This document shows, piece by piece, positions 1,418-22,852 of a DNA stretch of 64,000 nt (positions within the stretch are counted from its first letter, which is position 1; the number at the start of each line of letters is the position of its first letter). The notes under the pieces were generated by a model. The model ran no database searches and was not told the origin of the DNA. It saw only the letters and a list, made by a program, of their open reading frames with translations. This stretch comes from Halorarum halophilum (GTDB lineage: Archaea; Halobacteriota; Halobacteria; Halobacteriales; Haloferacaceae). The position numbers were made by a program, and so were the translations under genes. The stretch is from positions 1,364,001 to 1,428,000 of the forward strand of contig NZ_CP058529.1 in the NCBI RefSeq assembly GCF_013401515.1, written 5' to 3'.

Positions 1418-2695
1418 TCAGCGACCGCTCCCGACGGGACCGTAGTATTCGATCGCGGTCCGCAGTTCCTCGTGGGTTTCGGCGTACTCCTCTAGCGGAA
1501 TCCCCCGCATCGCCGCCTCCCACCCCTGCTTGATGTGGGCCACCCCCGCGGCCGGCCCGTCGGGGTGCCCCAAGATGCCACCGCCGGCGAGGTACATCAG
1601 GTCCGGGTTGCCGAGCGCCTCGTAGGTTTCGGGGGCCTGCCCGGCCCACTGTCCGGACGAGAACACCGGCATCACCCTGTCGTCCTCGTCGGCGATGGGC
1701 GCCTGGCAGGCCCGCGCCGAGCGGACGACCGACGCGTCGGACTCGCAGAACTTGTTCCGGATCCCGTTCACGTGCATGTGGTCCGCGCCCGCGAGGCGGA
1801 AGAACGTGTGGTAGGCGGCGTAGTCGAATCCGAGGAGCGGATGTCGGGAGAGCGCCCCCCACCCGTTGCGGTGTGCGTGGATCGGCAGGTCGGCCTCCCG
1901 GCGCAGGTCCAGGAGGCCCGAGATGCCCACGCTGTTCATGCTCACCATCACGCAATTGCCCCCGGCGTCCTTCACGGCGTCGTGGCGCTCGAGCATCTCG
2001 TGGACGCTCCCGGTGATGTTGCAGGCGTACATCACCTCCTGGCCGGTCTCGGCCTCGTGGTCGCGGACGACGTCCATGACCGCCTCGACGCGCTCCTCGA
2101 CCGGCGAGTACGGCGGATCGGCAATGAGTTCGTCGTCCTTCACGAAGTCCAGGCCGGCGTCGACGACCTCGGCGACGGTGTCGGCCGTCTCCGCGGGCGT
2201 GAGGCCCACGTTGGGCTTGACGATGGTGCCGATTATCGGGCGGTCCTCGACGCCGACAATCTCGCGGGTGCCCTCGATCCCGAACTGCGGGCCGGGGCAC
2301 GACCGAGTGAACGAGTCCGGGAGTTCGAGATCGAGGAGTCGGAGACCGGAGAACTGCCGCAACTCGAAGAGGTTGCCCGCGACCGTCGCGCGGAGGTTGG
2401 GCAGCGACGCGCCGACGTTCTCCGCGGGGAACGAGACGACGACCCGCGCCCGCCGGTACTCAGGATTCGCCGATCGCTCCGGCTCCGCCGCGCCGGGAAG
2501 CGACGGTTCGTCGGCCACGTCGAGTTCCACCAAATCCTCGACGCGTGCGCCGTGGCGCGCCTCCAGTTCCCCCGTCTCCCCCGGGACGTCGACGAACGTC
2601 CCCGAGGACTGTTCGCCTGCCATCGCGCTCGCCGCCTCGCGGAGGGGTCGGGCCGTCTCTATCAGGTACGTTGCCCTGAGGCGTTCGTCGCTCAC
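1418..2695 (-). CDS. RuBisCO-like protein (RuBisCO large-chain superfamily, OiaX/OiaT-like)
   Basis: A 425-residue RuBisCO large-chain superfamily member, first gene of a two-gene unit with the DUF1537 kinase. By eye, the equivalents of the RuBisCO catalytic residues are: K160 (K175 in plant numbering), the carbamylation segment K186-D-D-E189, the H275-R276 pair, H308, K315 and a GGG phosphate loop at 371-373. The second lysine of the IKPK motif is replaced (VKPN, residue 162), which argues against true CO2 fixation. In bacterial apiose pathways such proteins decarboxylate 3-oxo-isoapionate 4-phosphate (OiaX) or transfer/hydrolyse it (OiaT). This is the most economical role beside a DUF1537 kinase. 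A form III RuBisCO or an MtnW-type enolase is less likely from the residues and neighbours. Confidence 0.88.
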   Translation of the reverse strand: MSDERLRATYLIETARPLREAASAMAGEQSSGTFVDVPGETGELEARHGARVEDLVELDVADEPSLPGAAEPERSANPEYRRARVVVSFPAENVGASLPNLRATVAGNLFELRQFSGLRLLDLELPDSFTRSCPGPQFGIEGTREIVGVEDRPIIGTIVKPNVGLTPAETADTVAEVVDAGLDFVKDDELIADPPYSPVEERVEAVMDVVRDHEAETGQEVMYACNITGSVHEMLERHDAVKDAGGNCVMVSMNSVGISGLLDLRREADLPIHAHRNGWGALSRHPLLGFDYAAYHTFFRLAGADHMHVNGIRNKFCESDASVVRSARACQAPIADEDDRVMPVFSSGQWAGQAPETYEALGNPDLMYLAGGGILGHPDGPAAGVAHIKQGWEAAMRGIPLEEYAETHEELRTAIEYYGPVGSGR

Positions 2696-8527: not shown

Positions 8528-9661
8528 ATGAGCGACGTTACCGTTGACTCGGTGGAAGCCATCGGCGTGTGCGCACCGACCGACGAGCCGTTCGGCTACG
8601 CGCAGTCGTGGGTCGACGAGCGGACGGCGACGCTGGTTCGCGTCGAGGCGAGTGACGGCACCGTCGGGTGGGGCGAGTGCTGGGGCCCCGTCGAGGGGAC
8701 CGGCGATGTCGTCGAGTCCGTGCTCGCCCCGCATGTCGTTGACGAGAACCCACTCGAAGTCGAGCGACTCTACGACCGGCTCTACGACGTGGGGCGGGCG
8801 ACGTACCAGACCATCGTGCCCCTGCCGGCGATCAGCGGCCTCGACATCGCGCTGTGGGACCTCGCGGGGAAGCTACAGGGCGTGTCTACGGCGACACTGC
8901 TCGGCGGCCGGCGGCGCGAGTCGATTCGGCCCTACGCCACGGGCCACTACTTCAAGCCCGTCGACGATCTCGAGGAGCAGTACGACCGCATCGCGGCGGA
9001 GGCGCGGACGAACGCGACCGAACTCGGCGCGGTCAAACTGAAGGTCGGCCTCGAACTGCTCGGCTACGGCCCCCGGGAGGACGTCGAACTCGTCCGCCGC
9101 GTCCGGGAGGCAGTCGGCCCGAAGACGACGATGATGGTCGACGCCAACTACGCCTACGACCGGCGGGACGCTCGTCGGGTCGGCCGCGAACTCGAATCGC
9201 TCGATGTGGAGTGGTTCGAGGAGCCAGTCCAGCCGGAGGACCTCGAGGGGTACGCGGAGCTACGCGAGACGCTCGAGGTCCCCGTCGCTGGTGGGGAGTG
9301 TCACACGCCGGCCGAGTTCGACCGTCTTCTGGAGACGCACGCCGTCGACGTCGCCCAGCCGGACGTCTGCATCGTTGGCGGCCTGACGCCGGCCCGCCGC
9401 ATCGCGCGGCGGGCGCGCGACCACGGCGTCTCGCTCGTGCCGCACGTGTGGGGGACGTCCGTCAGTCTCGGGGCGAGCCTTCAGCTCGTCGCCACGCTCG
9501 ACGGCCGGCCGTGGCTGGAGTTCGACCGATCGTCAAACCCGCTCCGCGAGGAACTGGCCGCGGAATCGTTCGCCGCGGAGGACGGTCGCGTGTCGATCCC
9601 GGACGATCCGGGTCTTGGGGTGGACCTCGACGCCGACGCGATCGACCGGTACCGCGCGTAG
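8528..9661 (+). CDS. Mandelate racemase/muconate lactonizing enzyme family protein
   Basis: Enolase-superfamily protein of 377 residues. Motifs: K170-L-K172 on strand 2, metal ligands D205 (MVDANYAYD), E231 (WFEEP) and E257 (GGECHT), and H306 in PHVWGTSVSLGA as the second base. The GECHTP and PHVWGT motifs recur in acid-sugar dehydratases and racemases of the MR subgroup. Likely reaction: dehydration of an aldonate to a 2-keto-3-deoxy acid. It is followed 31 bases later by a second, only distantly similar enolase gene, forming a two-gene unit, and is divergent from the aminotransferase gene over 100 bases that include an AT-rich ggttattag box. Confidence 0.88.
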   Translation: MSDVTVDSVEAIGVCAPTDEPFGYAQSWVDERTATLVRVEASDGTVGWGECWGPVEGTGDVVESVLAPHVVDENPLEVERLYDRLYDVGRATYQTIVPLPAISGLDIALWDLAGKLQGVSTATLLGGRRRESIRPYATGHYFKPVDDLEEQYDRIAAEARTNATELGAVKLKVGLELLGYGPREDVELVRRVREAVGPKTTMMVDANYAYDRRDARRVGRELESLDVEWFEEPVQPEDLEGYAELRETLEVPVAGGECHTPAEFDRLLETHAVDVAQPDVCIVGGLTPARRIARRARDHGVSLVPHVWGTSVSLGASLQLVATLDGRPWLEFDRSSNPLREELAAESFAAEDGRVSIPDDPGLGVDLDADAIDRYRA

Positions 9662-9692
9662 TTTGATAGGTGGAGCACCCGTAGCCGGCGAC

Positions 9693-10772
9693 GTGACGCG
9701 CGTAACCGACGTCGACGTCAACCTGTACGGCGTCCCGAATGAGGAATCGCTGGACGACGCAACCCAATCGTTCGACGAACTCGAACTGGTCGTCGTCGAT
9801 GTGGAGACCGACGACGGACCTGGGATGGGATTCACGCACACGATCGGCGAAGGTGGGTCGGCGGTCCGCGAGTTCGTCGAGACGACGCTCGCCCCGGTCC
9901 TCGTCGGGGGGACGGCCGCCCCGCGGGTTGCCCGCGACCGGATACGGGCGGCGACGACGTACGTCGGCCGCGAGGGCGTCTCCGAACTCGCCGTCTCCGC
10001 CATCGACATCGCGCTCTGGGACGCGCTGGGGCGTCGCCTCGACGCCCCGCTGTACGAACTCGTCGGCGGCGAGCGCCGCGAGGTGCCAGCCTACCAGACG
10101 CACGGCGGGTGGCTCCAGTACGACACCCACGAACTGGTCGAGAACGCCCACGACGCCGCCGAACGCGGCTTCGCCGGGATGAAGATGAAAGTGGGCAGGG
10201 GCCACGCGGAGGACGCAGAGCGCGTCCGCGCGGTCCGGGAGGCGCTGCCGGACGGGATGGACCTCATGGTCGACGCCAACTGTGCGTACACGGTTCCCGA
10301 GGCGCGACGGTTCGCCAGACACCTCGGGGCCGTCCCGCTCGACTGGCTGGAGGAACCGCTCGACAAGGGGGACTTCGCCGGTCACGCCGACCTCCGGGAC
10401 CGGATCGCCGTGCCGGTCGCGCTCGGCGAGAACCTGTTCAACGAGACGCAGTTCAAGCAGGCGATGGCGCTCGGCGCGGCGGACGTCCTCCAGCCCGACG
10501 TCACCCGCGTCGGCGGCGTCTCCGCGTGGCTCGCCGTCGCGCATGCGGCCCGGACGTGGGACCTCCCCGTGTCGCCGCACTTCGTCGAACCGCTGCACGT
10601 CCACCTGGCGACGGCCTTCGACAACGTCCCCTACATCGAACACCACTCGACGGTGCTCGACAGCGTGATGGAGACGCCACTGGAACCCGTCGAGGGGGCG
10701 TTCACGCCGCCGGACGATCCGGGACACGGCATCCGGTTCGAGGGGCTGGAGACCTACCGGAAGGACGACTGA
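9693..10772 (+). CDS. Mandelate racemase/muconate lactonizing enzyme family protein (GTG start)
   Basis: Second enolase of a tandem pair, 359 residues from GTG 9693 (the GTG encodes the initiator; next residues TRVTDVDVNLYG). Motifs: K164-M-K166, D194 (MVDANCAYT), E220 (WLEEPL), E246 (LGENLF) and H296 (SPHFVEPLHVHLA). An ATG at 9615 would extend it 26 residues into the upstream gene and gives non-family sequence, so the GTG is preferred. It shares only motif-level similarity with its neighbour, so the pair is not a recent duplication. Probable MR-subgroup sugar-acid dehydratase or epimerase; substrate unknown. Converges on the ABC importer operon. Confidence 0.86.
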   Translation: MTRVTDVDVNLYGVPNEESLDDATQSFDELELVVVDVETDDGPGMGFTHTIGEGGSAVREFVETTLAPVLVGGTAAPRVARDRIRAATTYVGREGVSELAVSAIDIALWDALGRRLDAPLYELVGGERREVPAYQTHGGWLQYDTHELVENAHDAAERGFAGMKMKVGRGHAEDAERVRAVREALPDGMDLMVDANCAYTVPEARRFARHLGAVPLDWLEEPLDKGDFAGHADLRDRIAVPVALGENLFNETQFKQAMALGAADVLQPDVTRVGGVSAWLAVAHAARTWDLPVSPHFVEPLHVHLATAFDNVPYIEHHSTVLDSVMETPLEPVEGAFTPPDDPGHGIRFEGLETYRKDD

Positions 10773-10823: not shown

Positions 10824-12041
10824 TCAGTTAGTGACGTTCTCGCCGGTCACGTCGTCGAAGAGGTGGATCTTGTCCAGGTTGGCCACGAGCGTGACCACCT
10901 CGTCCTCCTCGATGGTGCTTTCGGGTGAGACGCGGGCGGAGAACTCGGTGTCGAGGTCGTCCGGTGCGTCGGGGTCGGTGAGCGTCAGGAACTTGTCGGA
11001 GCCCATCGGCTCGATGAGGCGGACGTACGCCTCGAAGGTGTTCGACTCGCCGACCCGCTCGTCGGCAACCTCGGCGTCGTGGATGTCCTCGGGCCGGAGT
11101 CCCAGCGTCAGGGCGTCCCGGTCACCATCCCACGACTCGACGGCAGCCGACAGGTCGTCCGGAAGCCCGAAGTCGAAGAGCGACGATTCGGCGAACTGCC
11201 GGTCGCCCGCCTCCCTGACGTCGACGTCGAAGAAGTTCATCGGCGGTTCGCCGATAAAGCCGGCGACGAACTGGTTCGTCGGATTGTCGTACAGGTGCTG
11301 GGGCGGGTCGACCTGCTGGAGTTTGCCGTCGTTCATCACGGCCACGCGGTCGCCGAGCGTCATCGCCTCGGCCTGGTCGTGCGTGACGTAGATGGTGGTC
11401 TTGCCGACGCGCTTGTGCAGGTCATTGAGTTCGGTCCGCATCTGCACCCGTAGCTTCGCGTCGAGATTCGACAGCGGTTCGTCCATGAGGAAGACCGACG
11501 GTTCGCGGACGATGGCGCGCCCGAGGGCGACGCGCTGCTGCTGGCCGCCCGACAGCGCCCCCGGCTTGCGGTCGAGCAGGTCCGAGATGCTGAGCAGGGT
11601 TGCCGCTTCTTCGACGCGACGGTCGATCTCCTCCTGGGGGAACTTCCGAACGTCGAGGGGGAACGCAAGGTTCTCGCGTACCCGCATGTGGGGGTAGAGC
11701 GCGTAGTTCTGGAACACCATCGCGATGTCCCGCTGGCGGGGGTCGAGCCCGGTCACGTTCATCTCCTCGATGACGATGCTGCCCTCCGTCGGCTCCTCGA
11801 GACCGGCGACGGTTCGGAGCGTCGTGGTCTTTCCACATCCCGACGGGCCGACGAGCACGAGGAACTCGCCGCGGCGGACGTCTATCGAAACGTCGTCCAC
11901 GGCGACCACGTCCGTCCCGTCGCTATCCTGGAATATCTTCGTCAGCCCGACGATGCGGACGTTGATGTCCGGCCCCGCGGTGTCGGGGGCGGACTCCTCG
12001 TCCGCGGTCGAGGGTTCCGTTTGTGAGGTTGTATCGGTCAT
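10824..12041 (-). CDS. CUT1-family sugar ABC transporter ATP-binding protein (MalK/UgpC-like)
   Basis: Last gene of a four-gene importer operon (binding protein, two permeases, ATPase). Motifs: Walker A GPSGCGKTT (65-73), Q-loop Q111, signature LSGGQQQR (163-170), Walker B FLMDEP (184-189), switch H221. The C-terminal third (about 265-405) is the TOBE/OB regulatory extension typical of MalK-like proteins, with GLRPEDI and a closing DKIHLFDDVTGENV. The 405-residue length is usual apart from an acidic 25-residue N-terminal extension. It energises uptake of a mono- or oligosaccharide or sugar acid across the cytoplasmic membrane. Confidence 0.93.
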   Translation of the reverse strand: MTDTTSQTEPSTADEESAPDTAGPDINVRIVGLTKIFQDSDGTDVVAVDDVSIDVRRGEFLVLVGPSGCGKTTTLRTVAGLEEPTEGSIVIEEMNVTGLDPRQRDIAMVFQNYALYPHMRVRENLAFPLDVRKFPQEEIDRRVEEAATLLSISDLLDRKPGALSGGQQQRVALGRAIVREPSVFLMDEPLSNLDAKLRVQMRTELNDLHKRVGKTTIYVTHDQAEAMTLGDRVAVMNDGKLQQVDPPQHLYDNPTNQFVAGFIGEPPMNFFDVDVREAGDRQFAESSLFDFGLPDDLSAAVESWDGDRDALTLGLRPEDIHDAEVADERVGESNTFEAYVRLIEPMGSDKFLTLTDPDAPDDLDTEFSARVSPESTIEEDEVVTLVANLDKIHLFDDVTGENVTN

Positions 12042-12129: not shown

Positions 12130-13008
12130 TCATTCTCCTTTCATCGCCCCCGCTGTCAGCCCGCTCACGATGTACTGCTGGAAGAACAGTACGACGAGGA
12201 CGGTCGGGATGATGGCGAGCACCGCCGCGGCGCCCATCTGGGCCCACGAGATGTTCACCTCGCCGACGAAGTCGTACACTGCGACCGAGATAGGTCGGGA
12301 CGCCAGCGTGCTCGAGATCATGAACGAGAAGAGGAACTCCCGCCACGAGTAGAGGAAGGTGAGGATACCGACGGCGGCGACGCCTGGCATCGCCAGCGGA
12401 ACAACGACCCTCCGGAACGCCTGTAGCTGCGTGCAGCCGTCAACGAGCGCGGATTCGTCGATCTCCTTCGGGATGGAAATGAAGAAGTTCCGCATGATGT
12501 AGATCATCAGGGGCAACCAGAGGTACACCTGGGCGAGGATGATTCCGGTGCGGCTGTTGAGCAGGCCGAACGCGGACAGTCCCTGGAAGTAGGGAATGAT
12601 GATGCCGATCGGCGGGAACAGCCGCGAGAAGATGACGCCGATGAAGATGGCGTTGTCGAACCGGAAGCGGAAGCGACTGAACGCGTAGCCGGCCGGGATC
12701 GAGAGCACCATCACGATGGCGGTCGTCGTTGTCGAGATGATGGCGCTGTTGAGCAGCGCCCGCCAGTATCCTTCTCGAATCACTACCAACTGGTACGCCT
12801 GGAACGTGAACTCCTCGGGGAGGTACGTCGGCGAGAACACCCCGTTGGGCGTCTTGAACGACGTGAGGCTCATCCAGAAGATCGGCACCAGGACGGAGAG
12901 CACCGTAAAGACCAGTACGGCGTGGACGATGTACGGTCCCTCGATGACGTTCCAGAACGCCTGTCTTTTTTCGTAGCTGATTCGCTCGTAGCTCTCCTCG
13001 GTGCTCAT
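12130..13008 (-). CDS. Carbohydrate ABC transporter permease (MalG-like)
   Basis: A 292-residue integral membrane subunit with about six hydrophobic segments. The cytoplasmic EAA loop that docks on the ATPase is visible as EIDESALVDGCTQLQAFRRV followed by VPLAMPG. One extended N-terminal segment precedes the first membrane helix (VLVFTVLSVLVPIFWM). It lies 64 bases after the MalF-like gene and 88 bases before the ATPase gene on the same strand. It forms the translocation pore with the other permease. Confidence 0.93.
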   Translation of the reverse strand: MSTEESYERISYEKRQAFWNVIEGPYIVHAVLVFTVLSVLVPIFWMSLTSFKTPNGVFSPTYLPEEFTFQAYQLVVIREGYWRALLNSAIISTTTTAIVMVLSIPAGYAFSRFRFRFDNAIFIGVIFSRLFPPIGIIIPYFQGLSAFGLLNSRTGIILAQVYLWLPLMIYIMRNFFISIPKEIDESALVDGCTQLQAFRRVVVPLAMPGVAAVGILTFLYSWREFLFSFMISSTLASRPISVAVYDFVGEVNISWAQMGAAAVLAIIPTVLVVLFFQQYIVSGLTAGAMKGE

Positions 13009-13072: not shown

Positions 13073-14020
13073 TCACTCCTCTATCCGTTCGAGTACCACG
13101 GTCACGTAGAAGATGGCGAGGATGACGGTGACCGCGACCAGGAATACGGCGATGGCCGACCCGTACCCGAAGTCCAGTTTTACCATCCCCTCGCGGTAGA
13201 TGTAGATGGCTAGCGTCGTCGTGCGGACGCCAGGTCCCCCCTGCGTCATCGGATAGATGATGGAGAAGGCCCGGAAGGCGAACATCCACGAGATGAGCCC
13301 CACGATAGCCATGTAGGGCCGCAGGTACGGCAACGTTATCTTCCAGAACCGTTGCCACGTCGTCGCGCCGTCGATCTTCGCGGCGTCGTACATGTGCTGT
13401 GGAATCGACTGGAGTCCCGCGAGGAACACGACCATCGCGAACGGCATCCGCAGCCAAGCGTCGACGAACGTCACGAGGGGCAGCGCGAGACGCTTGTTAG
13501 CCAGGAGCGCGAGCGGGCTGGAGATTATCCCGAGGTCCATCAAAACCTGGTTCAACAGCCCGTACGGCTGTCCGACGAAAATCCAGTTCCACGTGAGCGC
13601 GACTACCGCGAGCGGGAGCGCCCACGAGAAGAGGATGATCGTCGTGTACGTCGACCGCAGCCGTTTGTTTACAACGTGATTGGCCGCGAGGGCGACGAGA
13701 AGCCCGGACGTGAACGAGAGCGCCAGCGAGCCGAACGAGTAGATCAGCGTCTGTTCCAGGTACGTGTAGAACACCGACGACGTGAACAGTTTCTCGTAGT
13801 TGTAGAGTGGGCGGAAGATGGGCTCCGGGATGCCCGGGGCCGTCAGGAATAGCGACTGATAAAACATCCAGAGAACCGGGTAGACGAAGATCGCCGTGAT
13901 GAGAGCCAGCGGCGGGCCGAGCAGGACGAGCACCACGTGGTCGTTGAGCCACGCGCTGATACGTCCCTTCAGGCCGTCCGACTGGGTACCAATACCGGTT
14001 GTTGGTGTTTCAGTGGCCAT
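13073..14020 (-). CDS. Carbohydrate ABC transporter permease (MalF-like)
   Basis: A 315-residue inner-membrane permease of the CUT1 family. About six membrane segments are visible, beginning with VLVLLGPPLALITAIFVYPV, and the EAA loop reads MYDAAKIDGATTWQRFWKIT with LPYLRP after it. It starts 29 bases downstream of the substrate-binding protein stop, consistent with an operon. A hydrophilic N-terminal stretch of about 30 residues precedes the first helix. Partner of the MalG-like subunit. Confidence 0.93.
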   Translation of the reverse strand: MATETPTTGIGTQSDGLKGRISAWLNDHVVLVLLGPPLALITAIFVYPVLWMFYQSLFLTAPGIPEPIFRPLYNYEKLFTSSVFYTYLEQTLIYSFGSLALSFTSGLLVALAANHVVNKRLRSTYTTIILFSWALPLAVVALTWNWIFVGQPYGLLNQVLMDLGIISSPLALLANKRLALPLVTFVDAWLRMPFAMVVFLAGLQSIPQHMYDAAKIDGATTWQRFWKITLPYLRPYMAIVGLISWMFAFRAFSIIYPMTQGGPGVRTTTLAIYIYREGMVKLDFGYGSAIAVFLVAVTVILAIFYVTVVLERIEE

Positions 14021-14049: not shown

Positions 14050-15621
14050 CTACTGACCCAGGACCGTGTCGATGAACTCCTGAGCCGAGTTGAGCGCCTC
14101 TTCCGGGGATTTCTCGCCGGAGTACGCCAGGCTGAGCTCCTCGCTAACCTTCTGCATGACTGCGCGCTGCTGCGGGAACACTTCGTTCTTGGCGACTTCC
14201 ATCGACTTGCCGCGGACCTGCGAGAACGGCACTACGTTGTTTTGGCCGGCGACGTCGTAGTTGCTTTTAACGTAGGTCAAATTGCTCTCGACGACGTACT
14301 CCCACCAGCCGTTCTCGGTGGAGAACCGGGCGTCCTGGAGGAGCGCGCCCGCGGCCTTCTCCGCCGTTGGGGCGAACTTGTTCGTCGCCAGGACTGGACC
14401 GCCTGCCCAGGTGGCCTGCGTCGGGCTTGGACCGACGTTCGCCTTGGGCGGCGCGGCGAGGATGTACTGGCTGTCGAGTTCGTACTCGCTACTGGCGTCT
14501 GCGAACAGGTCCGTCGCCACGGGGACCATCGCTAGGTTCCCCGAGATGAAGCCGTCCGCGAGGTCACCCTGCGTCCACGTTGTGGAGGGGTCCGGCAGCC
14601 AGCCGTTCTCACGCCACTCGATGAGCTTCGAGAGGGCGGCCTTCGCACCTTCACCGTTCACCTTGATCGACTCGTCGTCCTGGATGTACTGACCTCCGGT
14701 CTGGTACCAGTGGATGCGGAAGTCCCGCTCGGTGTAGGTCAGGGAGGAACCGCGGAAGCCCCAGGCGTAGACGTCGGTACCCTCGAACGCCTTCATCACC
14801 GTCTCGAGTTCGTCCCACGACCAGTTTCCGTTCCGGATCTTATCGATGACACCCTTACTGACGCCTTGTTCCTCGAGCAGGTCGACGCGGACGTGGACCG
14901 GGTTACCCTCGACGTTCGCCGGCGCACCCCAGTTGGTCCCCTGCCAGGTGAACGTCTGCTTGAGGAGCGGAATGTACGGATTGTACATTTCGTCGTCCGG
15001 CAGGAGGAAGTCCGCCGGTTCGAGCCACCCGTTCTGGGCGTACGTCGTCATCGACGTGTCGACGGTGGACTGCAGGAGGTGAGGCGTGGGCTCCTTCGAG
15101 GAGAGCGACGCCGCCATCTTCGGGATGGCCTGGTCGACGACGATCTGGATCCGTTCGACGGTGATGCCGGTCTTCTCCTCGAACATGGCGTCGACCGCGT
15201 ACGTTGCCGGATCGAACTGCATGTCCCCATAGTTGAGGACTTGAATCTTGTCGACGTCACCGGCTGCCGTGTCCTCCCACCCTTTCGGAGGCTCCCAGGT
15301 GGAACTCTTCACCGATTCCGAGTCCAACCATGCCTGCTTGTTGGTGACAGCGTCGCCCTCCGGGACCGCCGTTCGTTTCTCGATCGGCCATTGGTCCACA
15401 GAGGCGGTACGGCGCTGTTGCCAGTTGCCAGCAAAATCGATATTCCCGATTTCGTTTTGGAATTCGGAGGAACCTGAACCGCCCTGGCCGTCCTGGCCAC
15501 CCTGGCCACCCTGGCCGCCTGGAACGCCCATGCAACCGGCGACGGCCGCGGTGGTTCCGGCGGCGGCGAGGTGTGTCAGCAGTTCTCGTCTGTCAAGTGT
15601 TCTCTTGCCAAACGGTGGCAT
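14050..15621 (-). CDS. Sugar ABC transporter substrate-binding lipoprotein (extracellular solute-binding protein family 1)
   Basis: First gene of the importer operon, 523 residues from ATG 15621. The N-terminus carries a twin-arginine-type signal (KRTLDRRELL) and a hydrophobic run ending in the lipobox AVAGC, so the mature protein is probably a Tat-exported lipoprotein. A Gly/Gln/Asp-rich linker follows, then a large periplasmic-binding fold. ATG 15621 is preferred over ATG 15636 because a GGAGGGTG Shine-Dalgarno-like run lies between them and would serve 15621. It captures the imported sugar or sugar acid; the ligand cannot be deduced from sequence alone. Confidence 0.92.
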   Translation of the reverse strand: MPPFGKRTLDRRELLTHLAAAGTTAAVAGCMGVPGGQGGQGGQDGQGGSGSSEFQNEIGNIDFAGNWQQRRTASVDQWPIEKRTAVPEGDAVTNKQAWLDSESVKSSTWEPPKGWEDTAAGDVDKIQVLNYGDMQFDPATYAVDAMFEEKTGITVERIQIVVDQAIPKMAASLSSKEPTPHLLQSTVDTSMTTYAQNGWLEPADFLLPDDEMYNPYIPLLKQTFTWQGTNWGAPANVEGNPVHVRVDLLEEQGVSKGVIDKIRNGNWSWDELETVMKAFEGTDVYAWGFRGSSLTYTERDFRIHWYQTGGQYIQDDESIKVNGEGAKAALSKLIEWRENGWLPDPSTTWTQGDLADGFISGNLAMVPVATDLFADASSEYELDSQYILAAPPKANVGPSPTQATWAGGPVLATNKFAPTAEKAAGALLQDARFSTENGWWEYVVESNLTYVKSNYDVAGQNNVVPFSQVRGKSMEVAKNEVFPQQRAVMQKVSEELSLAYSGEKSPEEALNSAQEFIDTVLGQ

Positions 15622-16120
15622 ACTACACCCTCCCATGCTATCGACATATAGCTTTCCCCAGGGCTAGGTGGGATAAGGAAAAGTGTAGCTGTATCTTATA
15701 TTTTAACGGAAGCTTATTGCGTTAAGTCAAAGCTACCGAACGGACCATCCTCGTGAGCGGCGCTCTCGAACGCGGCACCGCCGAGAGCGACCGGGGTAGT
15801 GAGGTCGTATCGTGTGGTCCAAGGACTTCCCGACGAGTTAGCCGTCCGTCGTGCTCCGGGTCCACGAACGACCCTCCGAGGGTTCAGCGACACCTCTCCG
15901 GGAGAAGTCAGTGCTGAATCCGGCCGCCGGCTCGTGGCTGCCGAACGGTTCGACGAGGAGCGGAACGGGTAGGGGCCGGTGCGACGGGAGTGGAGTCGAA
16001 GCCCTCGGACGGACAGCAACGTCCCCACGGGCGACGCCGACGGTTCGGGTAAGGGAACCGTTCACGTCGACGCGGACGGTGAACGGAAGGGATAACGCCG
16101 CCCACGGTATCGTTTCGGCG
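15622..16120. other. Intergenic region upstream of the ABC operon
   Basis: About 500 bases between the binding-protein start and the LarA-like stop. The proximal 100 bases hold the operon promoter. The remainder has long open frames on both strands, but none has recognisable protein sequence or a convincing start, so I call no gene. Confidence 0.5.
15695..15706 (-). promoter_or_regulatory. Probable TATA box of the sugar ABC operon
   Basis: On the minus strand this reads TTAAAATATAAG, an unusually AT-rich island in GC-rich DNA, about 75-85 bases upstream of the binding-protein ATG. It fits an archaeal TATA box for a leadered transcript. Confidence 0.5.
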
Positions 16121-17470
16121 TTAGTCTGCGTCGGGCGAGGGTGGGGGCGCGGTGAACCCTCCCTCGCCGTCGAACTCGACCGGTTCTGGCTCGGCGACGA
16201 CGCGCAGGTCGTCGCGCTCGCGGGCCTCCTCGATGAGCGCCTCCGAGACGTACAGCCGTTCGAGCCGCATCGTGTCGGTGACACGGGCGACGCGGACCTC
16301 CTCGGGGCCGACGATGCCCACCGTCGAGAGCGCTGCGACGAGCGCGGCGTAGTCCGACTCCATGATGGGCGGGACTCGCGCGCCCCGGAGATTGCTCGCG
16401 GTGACGGTGTTGATGACCGCCTTGGAGAGGTCCGTCTCGGCGATGAGATCCCGGTGGACGAGGTCGGCCATGCCCAGCGCCGTCGCGTTTCCGTGGGACG
16501 GTTCGGTCAGCGAGCGGACGTAGATTCGCCCGATGGTCGGCGACTCCGGTTCGGGTTCGAAGCCAAACTCGCGGCGGCCGACGACGTTCGTGTCCATACC
16601 CGTCCCGCTGATTTCCTTGCCCATCTGGTCGACGACGAGCACGTCGAGGTCGTCGAACGGGAGCGTCGGCAGTTTCTCGTACGCCGTCTCCAGGAGTTCG
16701 GCCTCGCGTTCGAGGAAACCCGACGGCGGAACGCCCTCCAGTATCGCGGTGTCGTCGTGCTGGTTCTCGACCGCGGCGATGCCACCGACGACCGGAAGGG
16801 CGTCGAGGAGGATGCGGGCGATCTGGGGGATCATCTCCCGGAAGCTCCAGTTGACCGCGCCCTCGTGGGCGAACTTCGCGCCGCGCTGTTTGCCCATCCC
16901 GATGACGAGCATCTTCGAGAGACCGCTCTCGACGCGGCCATCGAAGTCGGTGTGGGGCTTGACCCGGTTGATGGGAACGATGCCGTCAGCGGCGGCGGCG
17001 TTTGCGTCGGCAACGACCGAGACGCCCCGTTCGGGCGTCGTCCCGACCTCTACGACCTCCATCGTCGCGCGGACCTCGCACCCGACCGTCTCCTCGCTGA
17101 CGCCCAGGGCGTCAAGTTTGCCGCGCTGGCCATCGGCGGTCGCCCCGCCGTGACTTCCCATCGCCGGGAAGACGAACGGCTCGTAGCCGCGGGACTGCAG
17201 TTCTCCGACGACGCCGCGGACGATGGCGGGGAGGTTGGCGATGCCGCGGCTGCCAGCACCGACCGCGATCTCGCCGCCGTCGGGCACCTCGTCGAGTGCC
17301 AGCGAGTCGACGGCCTCCGCGGCCCGCGACTCGACCTCGTCGATCGGGATGGGATCCGTCTCCCAGATCTGTTCGATGACGCCCATCCGGGGCAGGTCGC
17401 GCTCGCCACACACTTCGAGTATCGTCTCCTCCGGGATGGGACCGACGGTGGGGTCCCCACGTTCGGTCAT
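16121..17470 (-). CDS. LarA-family (DUF2088) nickel-pincer-type racemase/epimerase homologue
   Basis: A 449-residue member of the lactate racemase (LarA) superfamily. Residues that in Lactiplantibacillus LarA carry the nickel-pincer nucleotide and catalysis have near-identical positions here: H107 (SHGG), H173 (KPHTD), K186 (LSKML) and H202 (FAHEG) against LarA H108, H174, K184 and H200; R75 also coincides. It probably racemises or epimerises a 2-hydroxy acid, plausibly a sugar acid given the neighbours. Cofactor-making genes (larB, larC, larE) are not in the window. ATG 17470 (MTERGDPT) is chosen; sequence further upstream in frame is Arg/Cys-rich and not family-like. The following 156 bases hold a probable promoter (aataagtga region). 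Confidence 0.82.
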   Translation of the reverse strand: MTERGDPTVGPIPEETILEVCGERDLPRMGVIEQIWETDPIPIDEVESRAAEAVDSLALDEVPDGGEIAVGAGSRGIANLPAIVRGVVGELQSRGYEPFVFPAMGSHGGATADGQRGKLDALGVSEETVGCEVRATMEVVEVGTTPERGVSVVADANAAAADGIVPINRVKPHTDFDGRVESGLSKMLVIGMGKQRGAKFAHEGAVNWSFREMIPQIARILLDALPVVGGIAAVENQHDDTAILEGVPPSGFLEREAELLETAYEKLPTLPFDDLDVLVVDQMGKEISGTGMDTNVVGRREFGFEPEPESPTIGRIYVRSLTEPSHGNATALGMADLVHRDLIAETDLSKAVINTVTASNLRGARVPPIMESDYAALVAALSTVGIVGPEEVRVARVTDTMRLERLYVSEALIEEARERDDLRVVAEPEPVEFDGEGGFTAPPPSPDAD

Positions 17471-17626
17471 TGTATGTGAAAGAATGCCACAGCTACAGCA
17501 ATAAGTGAATCGCTCGTTCGCGCGAAGGCGGGCGGATTCGTAGCCTGCCGAGCGACGAAGTGACGGGGGACGCCGACGAACGGGAGCACGCCTCACTGAC
17601 CGCGGGGAGTCACCGTGAGGTGGGCG

Positions 17627-18721
17627 TCACCATGAGGTGATGGTCACGTCCTTCAGCGGCCGGTCGAACGGCACCGAGACGTGGCCGCCGGTGTAGTGGG
17701 AGATGTAGAAGCCCACGATGACCTCGACGGACCGGGCGGCCTCCTCGCCCGGCGAGCGGTTCTCGGCCTCGCCGTTCAGCAGGTCCGCGACATGCCGGGC
17801 GGCGTTGGCGAACGAACCGCGGTAGTCCTCGTCCCAGCGCCACGCGTCCTCGATGCCCGGAATCGGCTTCTCGACGTGAGCTCCGTCCTCGAGCGCCCAG
17901 TAGCGCCACTCGCCGTCGTCGTTGTTGATGTAGAGTTTCCCCTCAGTGCCGACTAACTGGAACGTCATCGACGAGATGTCGCGGGCGACCGTGCAGTCGA
18001 TGGAGACGAACGTGCCGTCGTCCATGACTACGAACCCGCCGCCGCCGGAGTCGTCGACCTCGCGGTCCCCCTCCAGGGCCGTCACGGCGTCGTTCTCGCC
18101 GTTGATGAAGCCGCTGACCCGCCGCGGCCGGGCGTCGAGTAGGTAGACCAGGGTATCGATGAGGTGCGTCGAGTTCCGGAGCAGTTCGCGGCGGAACTGC
18201 GCGGTGACGGCCTTCACCTCGCCGATGAGGCCGTCCCGGACGTGGTCGCGGAGCGTCCGGAGTTTGTCGGTGAAGCGGAACGAGTGGTTGATGACGAGTT
18301 CGGTGTCCGTCTCCGCGCAGACCTCGCACATCTCCTCTGCCTCCCCGACGCCCGAAGCGATGGGTTTCTCACACCAGATGACATCGGGGTCTGCCGACGA
18401 TCGCGCCGCGTCGAGGACGTGCTGGTGGTGGAGGAACGAGGGGGTACAGACCGAGACGACGTCCAGTTCTTCGGCCGCCAGCATCGCCTCGTGGCCGACG
18501 TAGCGGCGTTCCGGAGGGAGGTCCCACGCCTCGCCGAACGTGTCCAGTTTCCCCTCGTCGACGTCGGCGACGGCGACGAGGTCGATGTCCTCGGTCGCGT
18601 GGTAGCCGCCGGCGTGGCTCTCGGGGAACTTCCTGGTCCCGATGTCTTCCTCGTCGTGGAGGCCGAGGATGCCAAGTCCGGCGATGCCGCCCGCGCCGAT
18701 GATGCCCGCTCGGTACGTCAT
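17627..18721 (-). CDS. Gfo/Idh/MocA family oxidoreductase
   Basis: A 364-residue NAD(P)-dependent dehydrogenase. The N-terminal Rossmann loop is GAGGIAG (9-15), the family EKP motif reads WCEKPIA, and the alpha/beta C-terminal domain carries the substrate face around NSTHLID. Such enzymes oxidise or reduce sugars, inositols or their derivatives at a ring carbon. Starts at ATG 18721 (MTYRAGIIGAGG); a start two codons earlier is possible. It lies 74 bases after the first altronate-dehydratase-like gene on the same strand, so it may be the distal gene of that operon. Confidence 0.88.
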   Translation of the reverse strand: MTYRAGIIGAGGIAGLGILGLHDEEDIGTRKFPESHAGGYHATEDIDLVAVADVDEGKLDTFGEAWDLPPERRYVGHEAMLAAEELDVVSVCTPSFLHHQHVLDAARSSADPDVIWCEKPIASGVGEAEEMCEVCAETDTELVINHSFRFTDKLRTLRDHVRDGLIGEVKAVTAQFRRELLRNSTHLIDTLVYLLDARPRRVSGFINGENDAVTALEGDREVDDSGGGGFVVMDDGTFVSIDCTVARDISSMTFQLVGTEGKLYINNDDGEWRYWALEDGAHVEKPIPGIEDAWRWDEDYRGSFANAARHVADLLNGEAENRSPGEEAARSVEVIVGFYISHYTGGHVSVPFDRPLKDVTITSW

Positions 18722-18795: not shown

Positions 18796-19929
18796 CTACA
18801 TCGAGGGGCCGACGCGGGTGATGGCGAACTGGGTCAGGCCGTGTCTTTCGGCCCGGGACGGGTCGCCGTTCGCCACTGCAAGCACCCGCTCGCGGACAGC
18901 AGCGTGGTCGGCGCTCGTCGCGTCGACGTCGATGTCCTCGGCGAGCGCGTCGACGGTATCGGCGTCGCCGGACACCTTCACCACCGGGACGACTGGATGG
19001 CCCGCGGGGATGCCGTCGCCGGTGACGTGGACGACTATCTGTGCACCGGCGGCCGCGAGTCCCGTGGCGGCCTCCTCGAACCGCGAGGGCGCGTCGAGGA
19101 CGGCCAGCCCGGAGTCGACGGCGACCCGGTCGCCGTAGTCGACGACCTCGCTCACCGGCAGTCCGCCCCACGAGGCGGTGGTGTCCGCGAACTCCATCCC
19201 GCCCGCCTCGGCGGCGATTCGCGTCGCCTTCGCGGGATAGTCGCGGTGGCGGGTGAGGAGTTCGTCCATCGCGTCCGCGGTCGCCTCGTCGACCGCTGTC
19301 GCACGCGCGTCGTCGGGGTGGGCGGTCAGGCGCTCACTGCCGGCGACGACGACGCGCCCGCCGGCCTCGACGACGGACTCCGCAAGGCGGCCGACAAGTG
19401 GGTCCGCCTCCGCGACCGTCGAGTCGTCGAGGTCGCTGCTGACGACGCCGACGGTGAGGTCGCCCAGCCCCGCCGTCGTGTGGGCCGTCTCCCGAGCGAC
19501 ACGTCGGAGGTCGCGGACGTGCTCGACGCCCGCTTCGACGCACTCCTCTGTGCCGCCGACGTCCTGGATCGACAGTTCGCGCACGGGGACGCCGCGCTCG
19601 TCGAGTCGGCTCGCCACGTCGTCGGACTGGAGCACCTCACAGCCGAGACCGACGACGACCGTCCCCGCGACGTTCGGGTTCGAGCCGAGGCCGAGGAACG
19701 TCCGTCTCGTCTGGTCGTTGTCGCTGCCGATCTGGGCGCAGCCGTGGCCGTGGGGCGTGCTGACCGCCTCGGGGACGGCGTCAGCGATGCGGTCGGCGAC
19801 CACGTGCGAGCAGATGACTGAGGGGAGCACGAGCACGTTATTGCGAACGCCGATGCGCCCGGTCGGCCGCTCGTATCCCTCGAACTGGCCGGCCTCGGGC
19901 GTCGGTTCGAGGTCGCTCCCGGCGCTCAC
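18796..19929 (-). CDS. UxaA family dehydratase large subunit (altronate/galactarate dehydratase C-terminal domain), copy 1
   Basis: A 377-residue protein of the GD_AH_C family, the catalytic part of altronate and galactarate dehydratases. Recognisable segments: GYERPTGRIGVRNNVLVLPS near the N-terminus, HGHGCAQIGSDNDQTRR, SNPNVAGTVVVGLGCE, and a C-terminal region with VHVTGDGIPAGHPVVPVVKV. GTG start, overlapping the stop of the SAF gene by four bases (GTGA), which implies translational coupling. It differs from the second large subunit in the same operon by lacking the long Cys/Gly-rich central section around VFGVECGGSDATSG, so it may be a non-equivalent or regulatory subunit. Confidence 0.85.
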   Translation of the reverse strand: MSAGSDLEPTPEAGQFEGYERPTGRIGVRNNVLVLPSVICSHVVADRIADAVPEAVSTPHGHGCAQIGSDNDQTRRTFLGLGSNPNVAGTVVVGLGCEVLQSDDVASRLDERGVPVRELSIQDVGGTEECVEAGVEHVRDLRRVARETAHTTAGLGDLTVGVVSSDLDDSTVAEADPLVGRLAESVVEAGGRVVVAGSERLTAHPDDARATAVDEATADAMDELLTRHRDYPAKATRIAAEAGGMEFADTTASWGGLPVSEVVDYGDRVAVDSGLAVLDAPSRFEEAATGLAAAGAQIVVHVTGDGIPAGHPVVPVVKVSGDADTVDALAEDIDVDATSADHAAVRERVLAVANGDPSRAERHGLTQFAITRVGPSM

Positions 19930-20246
19930 GCCGGTTCACCCCCGTCGGAACCGACCTCCAGGTCGCCCCGTCCACGGGTGCTCTCGCAGTTGTGGACGTG
20001 GACCCAGTCGCCCGCGGCGATGGGTTCGCTCGCGCGGCCGATGACCTCGCCGTACTTGACGATCTCCTCGCCCTCCGGGACGTCGACGAGCGCGAACTTG
20101 TGGCCGAACGCGACGGCCTCAGAGAGAACGAGCGTCCGGTCTCCGAGGTCGAGTTCGTGACCCGCATCGAGGTCGTCGATGGCGGTGGCGACGACGTCTT
20201 CAACCGTCATGACCAGCGCGTCGTCGTCGAGCACGTCGCCCTTCAC
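19926..20246 (-). CDS. UxaA family dehydratase small subunit (SAF domain)
   Basis: A 106-residue SAF-domain protein equivalent to the N-terminal domain of altronate/galactarate dehydratase. Family motifs: FGHKFALVDVPEGEEIVKYGEVIGRA, split here as FGHKFAL and KYGEVIG, then a WVHVHNCES ending. In many bacteria this domain is fused to the large domain; here it is a separate gene flanked by two large-subunit genes, each overlap being a four-base GTGA. It probably forms the mixed dehydratase with one or both. Confidence 0.92.
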   Translation of the reverse strand: MKGDVLDDDALVMTVEDVVATAIDDLDAGHELDLGDRTLVLSEAVAFGHKFALVDVPEGEEIVKYGEVIGRASEPIAAGDWVHVHNCESTRGRGDLEVGSDGGEPA

Positions 20247-21439
20247 GTCCGGACCTCCGTGCCGAGTTCGCCGATCTCGTTCGGCTGGATCTCGTTGATG
20301 GCGAACTCCTCGAGGCGTCGCCGCTCGGCCTCGGTCGGGTCGCCGTCCGCGATGGCCAGCAGTTTGTCGTACGTCCGCTCGCCGACGGTCGGGAGCGACT
20401 CGCCGCCGATGATGGTGCTGGCGTTGACGTCCATGTTGTTCGACATCCGCTCCCAGGTCTTCGGGTTGCCAGTGACCTTGATGACGGGCGCGATTGGGTT
20501 GCCGGTGGTGCTGCCGCGGCCGGTTGTGAACGCGACCACCTGCGCGCCGCCGGCGACCTTGCCGACGACGCTCTCGACGTCGTAGCCGGGCGTGTCCATG
20601 AGGACGAGGCCGCCGCCGACTGGCAAGTCCTCGCCGTAGCCGACGATGCCGTTGACCGGCGAGGTGCCACCTTTGGCGATGGCCCCGAGGCTCTTCTCCT
20701 CGATGGTCGTCAGCCCACCTTCCTTGTTACCGGGCGAGGGCTGGGCGCCGCGGATGTCGACGCCCATCATCTTCGCGAGGTTCTCGCGCCGTTCGACGAA
20801 GGCGAGCAGGCGCTTTCGCACCTCCTCGTTCGCCGCACGGTCGGCGAGGATGTGTTCGGCGCCGATGAACTCCGGCGTCTCGCTGAAGCAGGCGGTGCCG
20901 CCGTCCTCGACGAGGCGGTCGCAGGCGTCGCCGACGGCCGGGTTGGCCGCGATGCCGCTGGTGGCGTCGCTGCCGCCGCACTCGACGCCGAAGACTAGTT
21001 CGGAGGCGTCGGCCTCCTCGCGGCGAACATTGCCGACGGCCTCGTTCAGGTCGCTTGCCCGTTCGGCCCCCTGGTCGAGGGCGGTCAGCGTGCCGCCGCA
21101 CTCGCGGATGGAGAGCGTCTCGACGGGTTTCCCGGAGCGGGCGATTCGGTCGGCGAGTCCCTCGGCGTCGATGTCCTCGGTGCCGAGTTCGACGACCAGC
21201 GCCGCACCGACGTTCGGGTTCCGTCCGACGCCGGCGAGGACGCGCTCGGTCTGGTCGCGCGTCTCGTCGGGTTGGGTCGTACCCATCTGGTGGGGGGTCG
21301 CGCGGGCCCACGCCCCGGCCTCGCTCGCCACGCGCGAGGCGATGCTGGAGGCGGCGACGGACGTTGGGATTACGGCGACGTGATTTCGGACGCCGACCCG
21401 TCCGTCGTCCCGTCTGAATCCGGTGAAAGTCGGAACCAT
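20243..21439 (-). CDS. UxaA family dehydratase large subunit, copy 2 (altronate/galactarate dehydratase-like)
   Basis: A 398-residue GD_AH_C protein starting at ATG 21439 (MVPTFTGFRRDDGRVGVRN). Family hallmarks are better kept than in copy 1: VRNHVAVIPTS, HQMGTTQPDE, NPNVGAALVVELGTE, FGVECGGSDATSGIAANP, a CFSETPE stretch and a C-terminal TTGRGSTTGNPIAPVIKVTGN. These enzymes use iron or manganese to dehydrate altronate, galactarate or related acids to 2-keto-3-deoxy products. First gene of the unit; the frame continues upstream into the divergent promoter region without family sequence. Confidence 0.9.
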   Translation of the reverse strand: MVPTFTGFRRDDGRVGVRNHVAVIPTSVAASSIASRVASEAGAWARATPHQMGTTQPDETRDQTERVLAGVGRNPNVGAALVVELGTEDIDAEGLADRIARSGKPVETLSIRECGGTLTALDQGAERASDLNEAVGNVRREEADASELVFGVECGGSDATSGIAANPAVGDACDRLVEDGGTACFSETPEFIGAEHILADRAANEEVRKRLLAFVERRENLAKMMGVDIRGAQPSPGNKEGGLTTIEEKSLGAIAKGGTSPVNGIVGYGEDLPVGGGLVLMDTPGYDVESVVGKVAGGAQVVAFTTGRGSTTGNPIAPVIKVTGNPKTWERMSNNMDVNASTIIGGESLPTVGERTYDKLLAIADGDPTEAERRRLEEFAINEIQPNEIGELGTEVRT

Positions 21440-21748
21440 TGGACCGAGTGTTCGGAAGAGATTGCAATAGTCTTTCGCACGATGCACGCATGAATCACCG
21501 TTCCATTTCGGCGTCACTCCGTCAACCGGCACCGCTCCGTCTATCGGCATATCGTGAATTGACTGTCGACTTCCCATGATTCCGCTGCCGGCAGACGTGC
21601 CGGAGTCCGGTCGTCACCACCGGTCTGGTCTTGGTCGATGCGGGTCCGGTAGGCTGTAACTAACTGCCACCCGTGACCGTCGTGCGCCCGCACGGCGAAT
21701 CGCCCACCGACTGGAGGGTTTAACATCCAGCCCCCAGAGGGGTGAGCC
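21440..21748. promoter_or_regulatory. Divergent promoter region of the dehydratase operon and the Ldh-type gene
   Basis: A 309-base gap without a gene. A TATA-like stretch gggtttaacat (21716-21726) lies about 25-30 bases before ATG 21749, fitting an almost leaderless plus-strand transcript. AT-richer patches near 21450-21495 may serve the minus-strand operon. Confidence 0.5.
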
Positions 21749-22852
21749 ATGAAGCGGATCGACGCGGCTGAGCTCGAGGAGTTCGTGGGGGCGCTCGTCG
21801 CCGCCCTCGGTGCCGACAAGGACGTCGCCGACGAGGTGTCGGAGTCGCTGGTCGAGGCGGACCTCACCGGCCACGGCTCGCATGGCTCCATCCGGATGGG
21901 GACGACGTACCTGGAGATGGTCGGGTCTGGCGACATCGACCCGCGGGCGACGCCGGAGGTGACGCGTCTCTCCCCCACGGCCGCCCAGGTCGACGGGAAC
22001 CTCCAGTACGGGCAGGTGGTGGGACGGCGCGCCGTCGAGACCGGCGTCGACCTCGCCACCGAGAACGGCATGGCCACCGTCGGCGTCCGCAACGCGACCC
22101 ACCTCGGGCGGATCGGCGAGTGGGCCGAGCGGACGACCGACGAGGGGCTCTGTTTCACTGCGCTCGTCAACACCGGCGGCGCCGCGCCGCTCGTGACGCC
22201 GCCCGGCACCGCGGAACGCCTCTTCTCGACGAACCCTATCGCCTTCGGGGTCCCCCCGTTCGGCGCGCTCGACCACCCCGTCGTCCTCGACATGGCGACG
22301 AGCCAGGTGGCCCACGGGAAGGTGACGAAACGATCCGTCGAGAACCGCCCGATTCCCGAGGACTGGGTCATCGACGCCGAGGGGAACGCGGTGACGGATT
22401 CGACCGACTACGAGGAGGGCATCGGGGCAATGCTCCCACTCGGCGGCGAGACCGCCGGCTACAAGGGGTTCGGCCTGTCGATGATGGCGGAACTGTTCGC
22501 CGGCGTCGTCGGCGACGGCAAGGTGACCGGCCAGCCGACCGAGCACAGCGTCAACAACGGGGCGATGTTCTGCTTCGTCGACCCCGACGTCTACTCCACG
22601 CCGGCGGACAACCGCGCGCGCGTCGAGGCGCTGGCCGAGATGCTTCGGAACGCCGACTACCCCGACGCGGTGTCGATGGGGCCGACGGCGAAGGGCGACC
22701 GGGCCACGCTCCCCGGCGCGGCGGAACACGAGACGCGTCGGAAGCGACGCGCCGAGGGCATCCCCTTCTACCAGGAGACGCTCGACCTCCTCGCGGACAC
22801 CGCCCGTGAGGCCGGTGTCGAGTCGGCGATCCCCCACTCGTTCGCCGACTAA
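21749..22852 (+). CDS. Ldh2/malate dehydrogenase-2 family oxidoreductase
   Basis: A 367-residue NAD(P)-dependent 2-hydroxyacid dehydrogenase of the malate/L-lactate/ureidoglycolate (Ldh2, YlbC-like) family, unrelated to Rossmann LDH. Visible family segments: EADLTGHGSHGSIRM, NATHLGRIGEWAE, STNPIAFGVP, VLDMATSQVAHGKV and GYKGFGLSMM. Likely role: oxidation of a 2-hydroxy sugar-derived acid, for example 2,3-diketogulonate or a 3-deoxy acid. It converges on the MFS gene and overlaps its end by four bases. Confidence 0.9.
   Translation: MKRIDAAELEEFVGALVAALGADKDVADEVSESLVEADLTGHGSHGSIRMGTTYLEMVGSGDIDPRATPEVTRLSPTAAQVDGNLQYGQVVGRRAVETGVDLATENGMATVGVRNATHLGRIGEWAERTTDEGLCFTALVNTGGAAPLVTPPGTAERLFSTNPIAFGVPPFGALDHPVVLDMATSQVAHGKVTKRSVENRPIPEDWVIDAEGNAVTDSTDYEEGIGAMLPLGGETAGYKGFGLSMMAELFAGVVGDGKVTGQPTEHSVNNGAMFCFVDPDVYSTPADNRARVEALAEMLRNADYPDAVSMGPTAKGDRATLPGAAEHETRRKRRAEGIPFYQETLDLLADTAREAGVESAIPHSFAD

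Follow-up and report, generated by a model that had tools for sequence, protein, structure and literature searches.

A LarA-like isomerase of nickel-pincer group 22 in a haloarchaeal sugar-acid operon and its probable C2-epimerase function

Introduction

Nickel-pincer enzymes are a young class, and few of their reactions are known. In the LarA-superfamily study of Desguin et al., members of groups 1-8, 10, 12, 14, 19, 20 and 23 are reported as assayed, gene neighbourhood is described as not always predictive of activity, and residue D72 is given as conserved in LarA, Mar2 and GntE2 and counted as catalytic (PMC7583248). This residue is described as touching the ribose of the cofactor (PMC12611868). 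The 'group 22' of NCBIfam is likely the same-numbered group of Desguin et al. and, if the numberings are equal, it is not among the groups reported there as assayed (PMC7583248). Our literature searches for a later group-22 assay, for 'group 22' or the NCBIfam name, and for a link of group 22 to altronate or threonate found no paper.

Here we describe a group-22 gene (the isomerase) of Halorarum halophilum, in a 64-kb stretch of DNA that was analysed as a whole (the window). A sequence-only reading had presented its product as a LarA homologue in a sugar-acid cluster, and we compared the gene, its predicted structure and its neighbourhoods with those of its relatives.

Results

The isomerase belongs to NCBIfam group 22

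The isomerase and the surrounding genes are as follows.

9615..10772, plus strand: enolase-superfamily acid-sugar dehydratase-like protein (NCBIfam NF047820, 254.7 bits, cut-off 500)
10824..12041, minus strand: ABC importer ATPase (open reading frame; gene order as for the annotated ABC ATPase in locus L211)
12130..13008, minus strand: ABC importer permease (open reading frame; gene order as for the annotated carbohydrate ABC permease in L211)
13073..14020, minus strand: ABC importer permease (open reading frame; gene order as for the annotated sugar ABC permease in L211)
14050..15636, minus strand: sugar-type solute-binding protein, downstream of the isomerase (Pfam SBP_bac_8)
16121..17470, minus strand: predicted NPN-dependent isomerase, group 22 (LarA-like), 449 aa, ATG at 17470 (NCBIfam NF052515, fold, residues)
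17627..18721, minus strand: Gfo/Idh/MocA oxidoreductase, about 365 aa, upstream of the isomerase (Pfam PF01408/PF22725; start inferred, ATG 18721)
18796..19929, minus strand: UxaA/GarD-family dehydratase subunit, short, 377 aa, with an incomplete GD_AH_C domain (Pfam PF04295, PF20629)
19926..20246, minus strand: SAF-domain dehydratase subunit, 106 aa (Pfam PF08666)
20243..21577, minus strand: UxaA/GarD-family dehydratase subunit with full GD_AH domains, 444 aa (Pfam PF20629, 314 bits)
21749..22852, plus strand: Ldh_2-family oxidoreductase (Pfam PF02615, 299 bits)

The open reading frame described earlier at 16121-17470, with R75, H107, H173, K186 and H202, is present on the minus strand, and an in-frame GTG at 17596 would give an alternative product of 491 aa. 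The protein matches NF052515, 'nickel pincer cofactor-dependent isomerase, group 22', with 500.4 bits (equivalog cut-off 400), and residues 26-418 cover positions 1-391 of the 392 in the profile. Clostridial and acidobacterial relatives also fall within NF052515. The sequence is too divergent to match Pfam Lar_N (PF09861) above the cut-off; one paralogue scores 21.3 bits against a cut-off of 23.3. The Pfam scan of the isomerase returned DUF362 alone, below threshold, and relatives are often annotated publicly as 'DUF362 domain-containing protein' or 'lactate racemase domain-containing protein'. LarA was not retrieved from the PDB sequences by phmmer with the isomerase or by a profile HMM built from 23 relatives, so the link to LarA rests on the fold and on profile comparison. 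Judged from its sequence, the isomerase is a member of a named family inside a known superfamily, with one catalytic position changed. Group 22 is present in 100 of 242 haloarchaeal genomes (about 40%), often in several copies, and the genome studied here has four group-22 genes in all.

Predicted fold and active-site residues

To place the isomerase structurally, we compared a model built from 23 relatives (mean pLDDT 87.6) with PDB chains. Twelve LarA-family entries matched at Z 17.9-19.6 over 301-320 residues and the next entry scored 6.8; only LarA-family structures thus match the model strongly. The matched entries include malate racemase 6d6z, LarA 5huq and 6c1w, Isosphaera LarA 9eia, the Thermotoga protein 4nar and the single-histidine enzymes 9q3j and 9q3k. 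Foldseek was concordant, with LarA-family matches at E 1e-11 to 8e-9.

For residue mapping, canonical archaeal LarA homologues were gathered, aligned and tied to the PDB sequences of LarA and Mar2, followed by a profile-profile alignment. This alignment places R75, H107, H173, K186 and H202 of the isomerase opposite R75, H108, H174, K184 and H200 of LarA, confirming the near-identical numbering noted earlier, including the pairing of K186 with the cofactor lysine K184. The sequence-only reading had named a cofactor lysine that is not conserved as one refutation, and this did not hold. The profile-profile score is weak alone (E 0.0016 and 16% probability with 23 sequences; E 4e-4 and 35% with a larger set). 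Every one of 97 full-length group-22 proteins has all five residues; the set spans haloarchaea, Clostridia, Proteobacteria, Acidobacteria and Chloroflexi as well as other groups, and the numbering match is therefore not a matter of chance. The residue case is carried by the fold match and this invariance, not by the alignment score.

One LarA residue, D72, is lost, although it is not known to be needed for cofactor use in every group. In the 97 proteins Asp never occurs at this position, which is almost always A, V or C, and the triplet preceding R75 is x-G-S in every one, x being mostly A, V or C; the earlier reading was silent on this replacement. Candidates for a K298 counterpart are K285 (97 of 99 rows) and R299 (93 of 99 rows), in a region past residue 283 where the alignment is unreliable. 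The second histidine, H173, is followed by the polar T174 and D175, compared with F175 and F176 in LarA.

Cofactor supply

The sequence-only reading had noted the absence of larB, larC and larE from the window, and had named the absence of all NPN biosynthetic genes from the genome as a refutation. The genome search rules out such an absence, since all three were found above curated cut-offs: larB (NF033503, 219 bits, cut-off 175), larC (PF01969, 420 bits, over its cut-off) and larE (TIGR00268, 290 bits, cut-off 150). Their best genome-wide matches are all on the chromosome outside the 64-kb window. Among the 242 haloarchaea, 98 of 100 genomes with group 22 and 99 of 142 without it have LarC (Fisher p 2e-9); for LarB the counts are 99 of 100 (98 plus one genome with larB split over two contig ends) and 94 of 142, respectively (p 5e-12). 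Both p values are inflated by shared descent. One exception is G094, a genome that looks complete and has group 22, yet gave no match to larB or to larC. A second haloarchaeon without a larC match (G235) has group 22, larB and larE next to one another on a contig of 5.8 kb. Operons in bacteria also join group 22 to cofactor genes: a Pseudosulfitobacter plasmid has the order altronate dehydratase-group 22-larC, and a Loktanella plasmid has IlvD/Edd-Ldh-DHDPS-altronate dehydratase-group 22-hypothetical-larB-larC-larE, where the final gene, annotated 'adenine nucleotide alpha hydrolase', is taken here as larE. The earlier prediction of a nickel-pincer enzyme is thus backed by family, fold, residues, larB/C/E in the genome, co-occurrence and operons, and use of the cofactor by the isomerase is supported.

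A separate observation concerns genomes with cofactor genes and no recognized user. Thirteen of 20 haloarchaeal genomes checked (G005, G011, G013, G017, G019, G022, G024, G025, G028, G037, G038, G044 and G046) have larB and larC without group 22 or Lar_N (PF09861, E 0.01). Either haloarchaea have a further nickel-pincer enzyme that goes unrecognized, or larB and larC have another use there.

The operon of the window

The probable operon order, 5' to 3', is large GD_AH subunit, SAF subunit, short GD_AH subunit, Gfo/Idh oxidoreductase, isomerase, binding protein, two permeases and ATPase. In the dehydratase trio each gene overlaps the next by 4 bases, the SAF gene overlapping both neighbours. 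The trio (18796-21577, minus strand) is a galactarate/altronate-dehydratase-family enzyme split into three overlapping genes, with two GD_AH proteins, and it recurs in Halomarina, Natrinema, Haladaptatus and Halarchaeum. The best NCBIfam relative of the SAF subunit is the galactarate dehydratase N-terminus, below cut-off, and the sole PDB relative of the large subunit is galactarate dehydratase 6u7l. Galactarate dehydratase proper was rejected (TIGR03248, 202 bits against a cut-off of 731). The protein encoded at 9615..10772 is closest to L-talarate/galactarate dehydratase, also below cut-off, and no mannonate dehydratase UxuA was recognized in the window. The Ldh_2 family adjoins group-22 genes in Clostridiales and Loktanella too.

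We also considered two narrower assignments. We did not favour a lactate-specific function, since the only recognized lactate gene of the window is that of the Ldh_2-family oxidoreductase, a family with many substrates. For sulfolactate the part list fits, the SAF and GD_AH proteins being near SuyA and SuyB in size and the Ldh_2 protein resembling L-sulfolactate dehydrogenase (165 bits, cut-off 500), but the sugar importer and the enolase-family genes do not.

Elsewhere in the window, a four-carbon-acid-kinase-type gene lies beside a RuBisCO-like protein gene (16-1416 and 1418-2695, minus strand). Their closest relatives are OiaK (505 bits) and OiaX (508 bits), each below its equivalog cut-off of 700, and the two resemble the kinase/decarboxylase pair of the apionate pathway. 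A split UxaA-family dehydratase with 46% identity to the large subunit of the window occurs on an Escherichia albertii plasmid (NZ_CP030786.2), where it adjoins a 2-keto-3-deoxygluconate permease, with no group-22 gene among the listed features.

Neighbourhoods of group-22 relatives

To determine which genes accompany group 22 elsewhere, we examined the loci of its relatives. The closest ones, in Salinigranum and Haladaptatus, keep the importer and the dehydratase trio nearby. In Clostridiales the order is DgoD-GD_AH-group 22-Ldh_2, with a bona fide D-galactonate dehydratase (645 bits, cut-off 311), in Oscillibacter GntP permease-group 22-SAF-GD_AH, and in Sporomusa group 22-SAF-UxaA; IlvD/Edd stands beside group 22 in bacteria such as Loktanella. 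A sugar-acid dehydratase of four families lies within 8 kb in 23 of 62 archaeal loci compared with 2 of 40 control regions (p 1e-4), an enrichment that is partly one of neighbourhood type because the controls are chromosomal and fixed in position and many group-22 loci are on catabolic plasmids. The corresponding count for bacterial group-22 loci is 8 of 25 (control 2 of 40), and UxuA is near 14 of 62 archaeal loci compared with 1 of 40 control regions. Among haloarchaeal genomes that contain GD_AH as well as group 22, at least 11 of 30 GD_AH places are within 20 kb of group 22, where chance expects less than 1; this count was made by hand and several of the 11 are from sister species. The same trio occurs in Halomarina and Natrinema with no adjacent group-22 gene, in keeping with group 22 being an accessory that broadens the set of usable stereoisomers.

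A Rubrobacter plasmid (L214) has the order four-carbon-acid kinase-pdxA-group 22, with PdxA overlapping the group-22 gene and divergent lut genes nearby. Group 22 beside a D-threonate-kinase-like gene and/or PdxA was seen in six loci (L214, L097, L101, L088, L049 and L100). D-erythronate and D-threonate are C2 epimers, and together with the kinase and PdxA neighbours this points to a specific 2-epimerase.

The three other group-22 genes of the genome are beside an enolase-family gene and an ABC importer (L038, C1:2371818-2372975), a GH28 polygalacturonase (L039, C1:3041176-3042354), and an FAH hydrolase and Gfo/Idh pair (L040, C1:3241103-3242278). These paralogues beside other sugar-acid genes suggest several substrates in one cell.

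Discussion

We consider it probable that the isomerase is a LarA-type enzyme that carries the nickel-pincer nucleotide (NPN) on K186 and acts as a C2-epimerase of an aldonate or aldarate feeding the dehydratase of its operon. The observations behind this proposal are the family, the predicted fold, the conserved residues, the presence and co-occurrence of the cofactor genes, and the conserved neighbourhood. The chromosomal larB, larC and larE genes outside the window would supply the cofactor, which would be tethered to K186, with H202 coordinating the nickel. H107 and H173 would alternate as acid and base, and a proton-coupled hydride transfer through the cofactor would invert C2. The predicted substrate is a polyhydroxy acid with at least four carbons, either an aldonate or an aldarate. 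A sugar acid of the wrong C2 configuration, whether taken up by the cell or formed as an intermediate, would probably be converted to the epimer that the three-part UxaA/GarD-type dehydratase can use. The pairs D-altronate/D-allonate, D-galactonate/D-talonate, D-gluconate/D-mannonate and galactarate/talarate are candidates. Group 22 is a neighbour of four unrelated dehydratase families and of a kinase/dehydrogenase pair, suggesting that what these have in common is a need for a sugar acid with the right C2 configuration. The 'aldonate epimerase feeding the dehydratases' of the sequence-only reading is supported as a class by the archaeal and bacterial neighbourhoods, while cofactor loading, the epimerase reaction itself, the substrate class and the direction of flux are predicted. 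The replacement of D72, the G094 genome without larB and larC, the trio without group 22 elsewhere, the lactate-utilization and glycerate-kinase neighbours of some relatives and the cases in this superfamily where neighbourhood did not predict activity (PMC7583248) are points against the C2-epimerase reading.

The main rival is a lactate or glycerate racemase. Here the isomerase would still depend on the nickel-pincer cofactor but would racemize a small 2-hydroxy acid such as glycerate, lactate or a related compound. It would act on the products of sugar-acid breakdown and provide glycerate 2-kinase, or the Lut proteins of lactate oxidation, with one enantiomer. Some relatives do stand beside lactate-utilization and glycerate-kinase genes, a setting that fits a smaller substrate: LutB/LutC adjoin the relatives in Haloarcula and the Haloferax relatives of this clade, and in Haloarcula a MOFRL glycerate-kinase-type gene is a neighbour as well. 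Of 62 archaeal loci, 20 have an FAH-family hydrolase gene nearby, and LarA and two homologues racemize glycerate (PMC11770544). However, the minimal operons of the Oscillibacter type, of Pseudosulfitobacter and of Rubrobacter have no glycerate or lactate enzyme (the divergent lut genes of Rubrobacter being nearby), no Lut or glycerate-kinase gene was found among the scanned genes of the window operon, and T174 and D175 are polar where LarA has F175 and F176. We regard a small-acid racemase as unlikely, though the least unlikely of the alternatives.

The loss of D72, and the uncertain position of a K298 counterpart, would also fit an enzyme that binds the nickel-pincer nucleotide and performs some other hydride-mediated reaction on a sugar acid with no inversion of C2, as Desguin et al. 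proposed for groups without catalytic residues (PMC7583248). Both acid/base histidines and the cofactor residues are invariant in group 22, unlike in the single-histidine groups (PMC12611868), making this alternative quite improbable. Slightly more doubtful still is a DUF362-type protein with a mechanism unrelated to LarA and no nickel-pincer cofactor. The sole, sub-threshold Pfam match and much of the public annotation name DUF362, and DUF362 and DUF2088 are in one Pfam clan (PMC11770544), but all five cofactor and catalytic residues are kept, the match to the LarA-enzyme fold extends over 301-320 residues, and relatives stand in operons with larBCE, larC or larB-larE.

Beyond the single locus, we tentatively propose, at somewhat less than even chances, that group 22 is a widespread nickel-pincer branch without D72 that serves archaea and bacteria as a detachable C2 adapter in the catabolism of sugar acids. 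The downstream enzymes would be GD_AH, UxuA, enolase-type and IlvD/Edd dehydratases for C5-C6 acids, and DtnK/PdxA2 for C4 acids (D-erythronate to D-threonate). The operons give a short list of substrates open to direct assay, the clearest candidates being D-erythronate/D-threonate for the DtnK-PdxA-linked genes and altronate/allonate, galactonate/talonate and galactarate/talarate for the UxaA-linked ones.

Among known enzymes, the best structural match is the malate racemase Mar2 (6d6z, 7s91; Z 19.6 over 301 residues, tied with several others), at 15% identity, but the isomerase has no malate setting around it. LarA of Lactiplantibacillus plantarum (5huq, 6c1w) has the same fold (Z 18.0-18.3) and shares R75, H108, H174, K184 and H200, whereas the isomerase, 14% identical, lacks D72, has T/D in place of F175/F176 and has no recognized lactate-specific neighbours in the window. 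In NF052515 the isomerase is a full-length member of a family whose name carries no substrate. The D-gluconate 2-epimerase GntE (groups 19/20, e.g. Thermotoga maritima 4nar) differs from the isomerase in overall sequence (13% identity in the structural alignment) and in the D72 counterpart, lost in group 22, but the two have in common the fold (Z 18.4), the cofactor residues, the polar residues after the second histidine and the sugar-acid setting.
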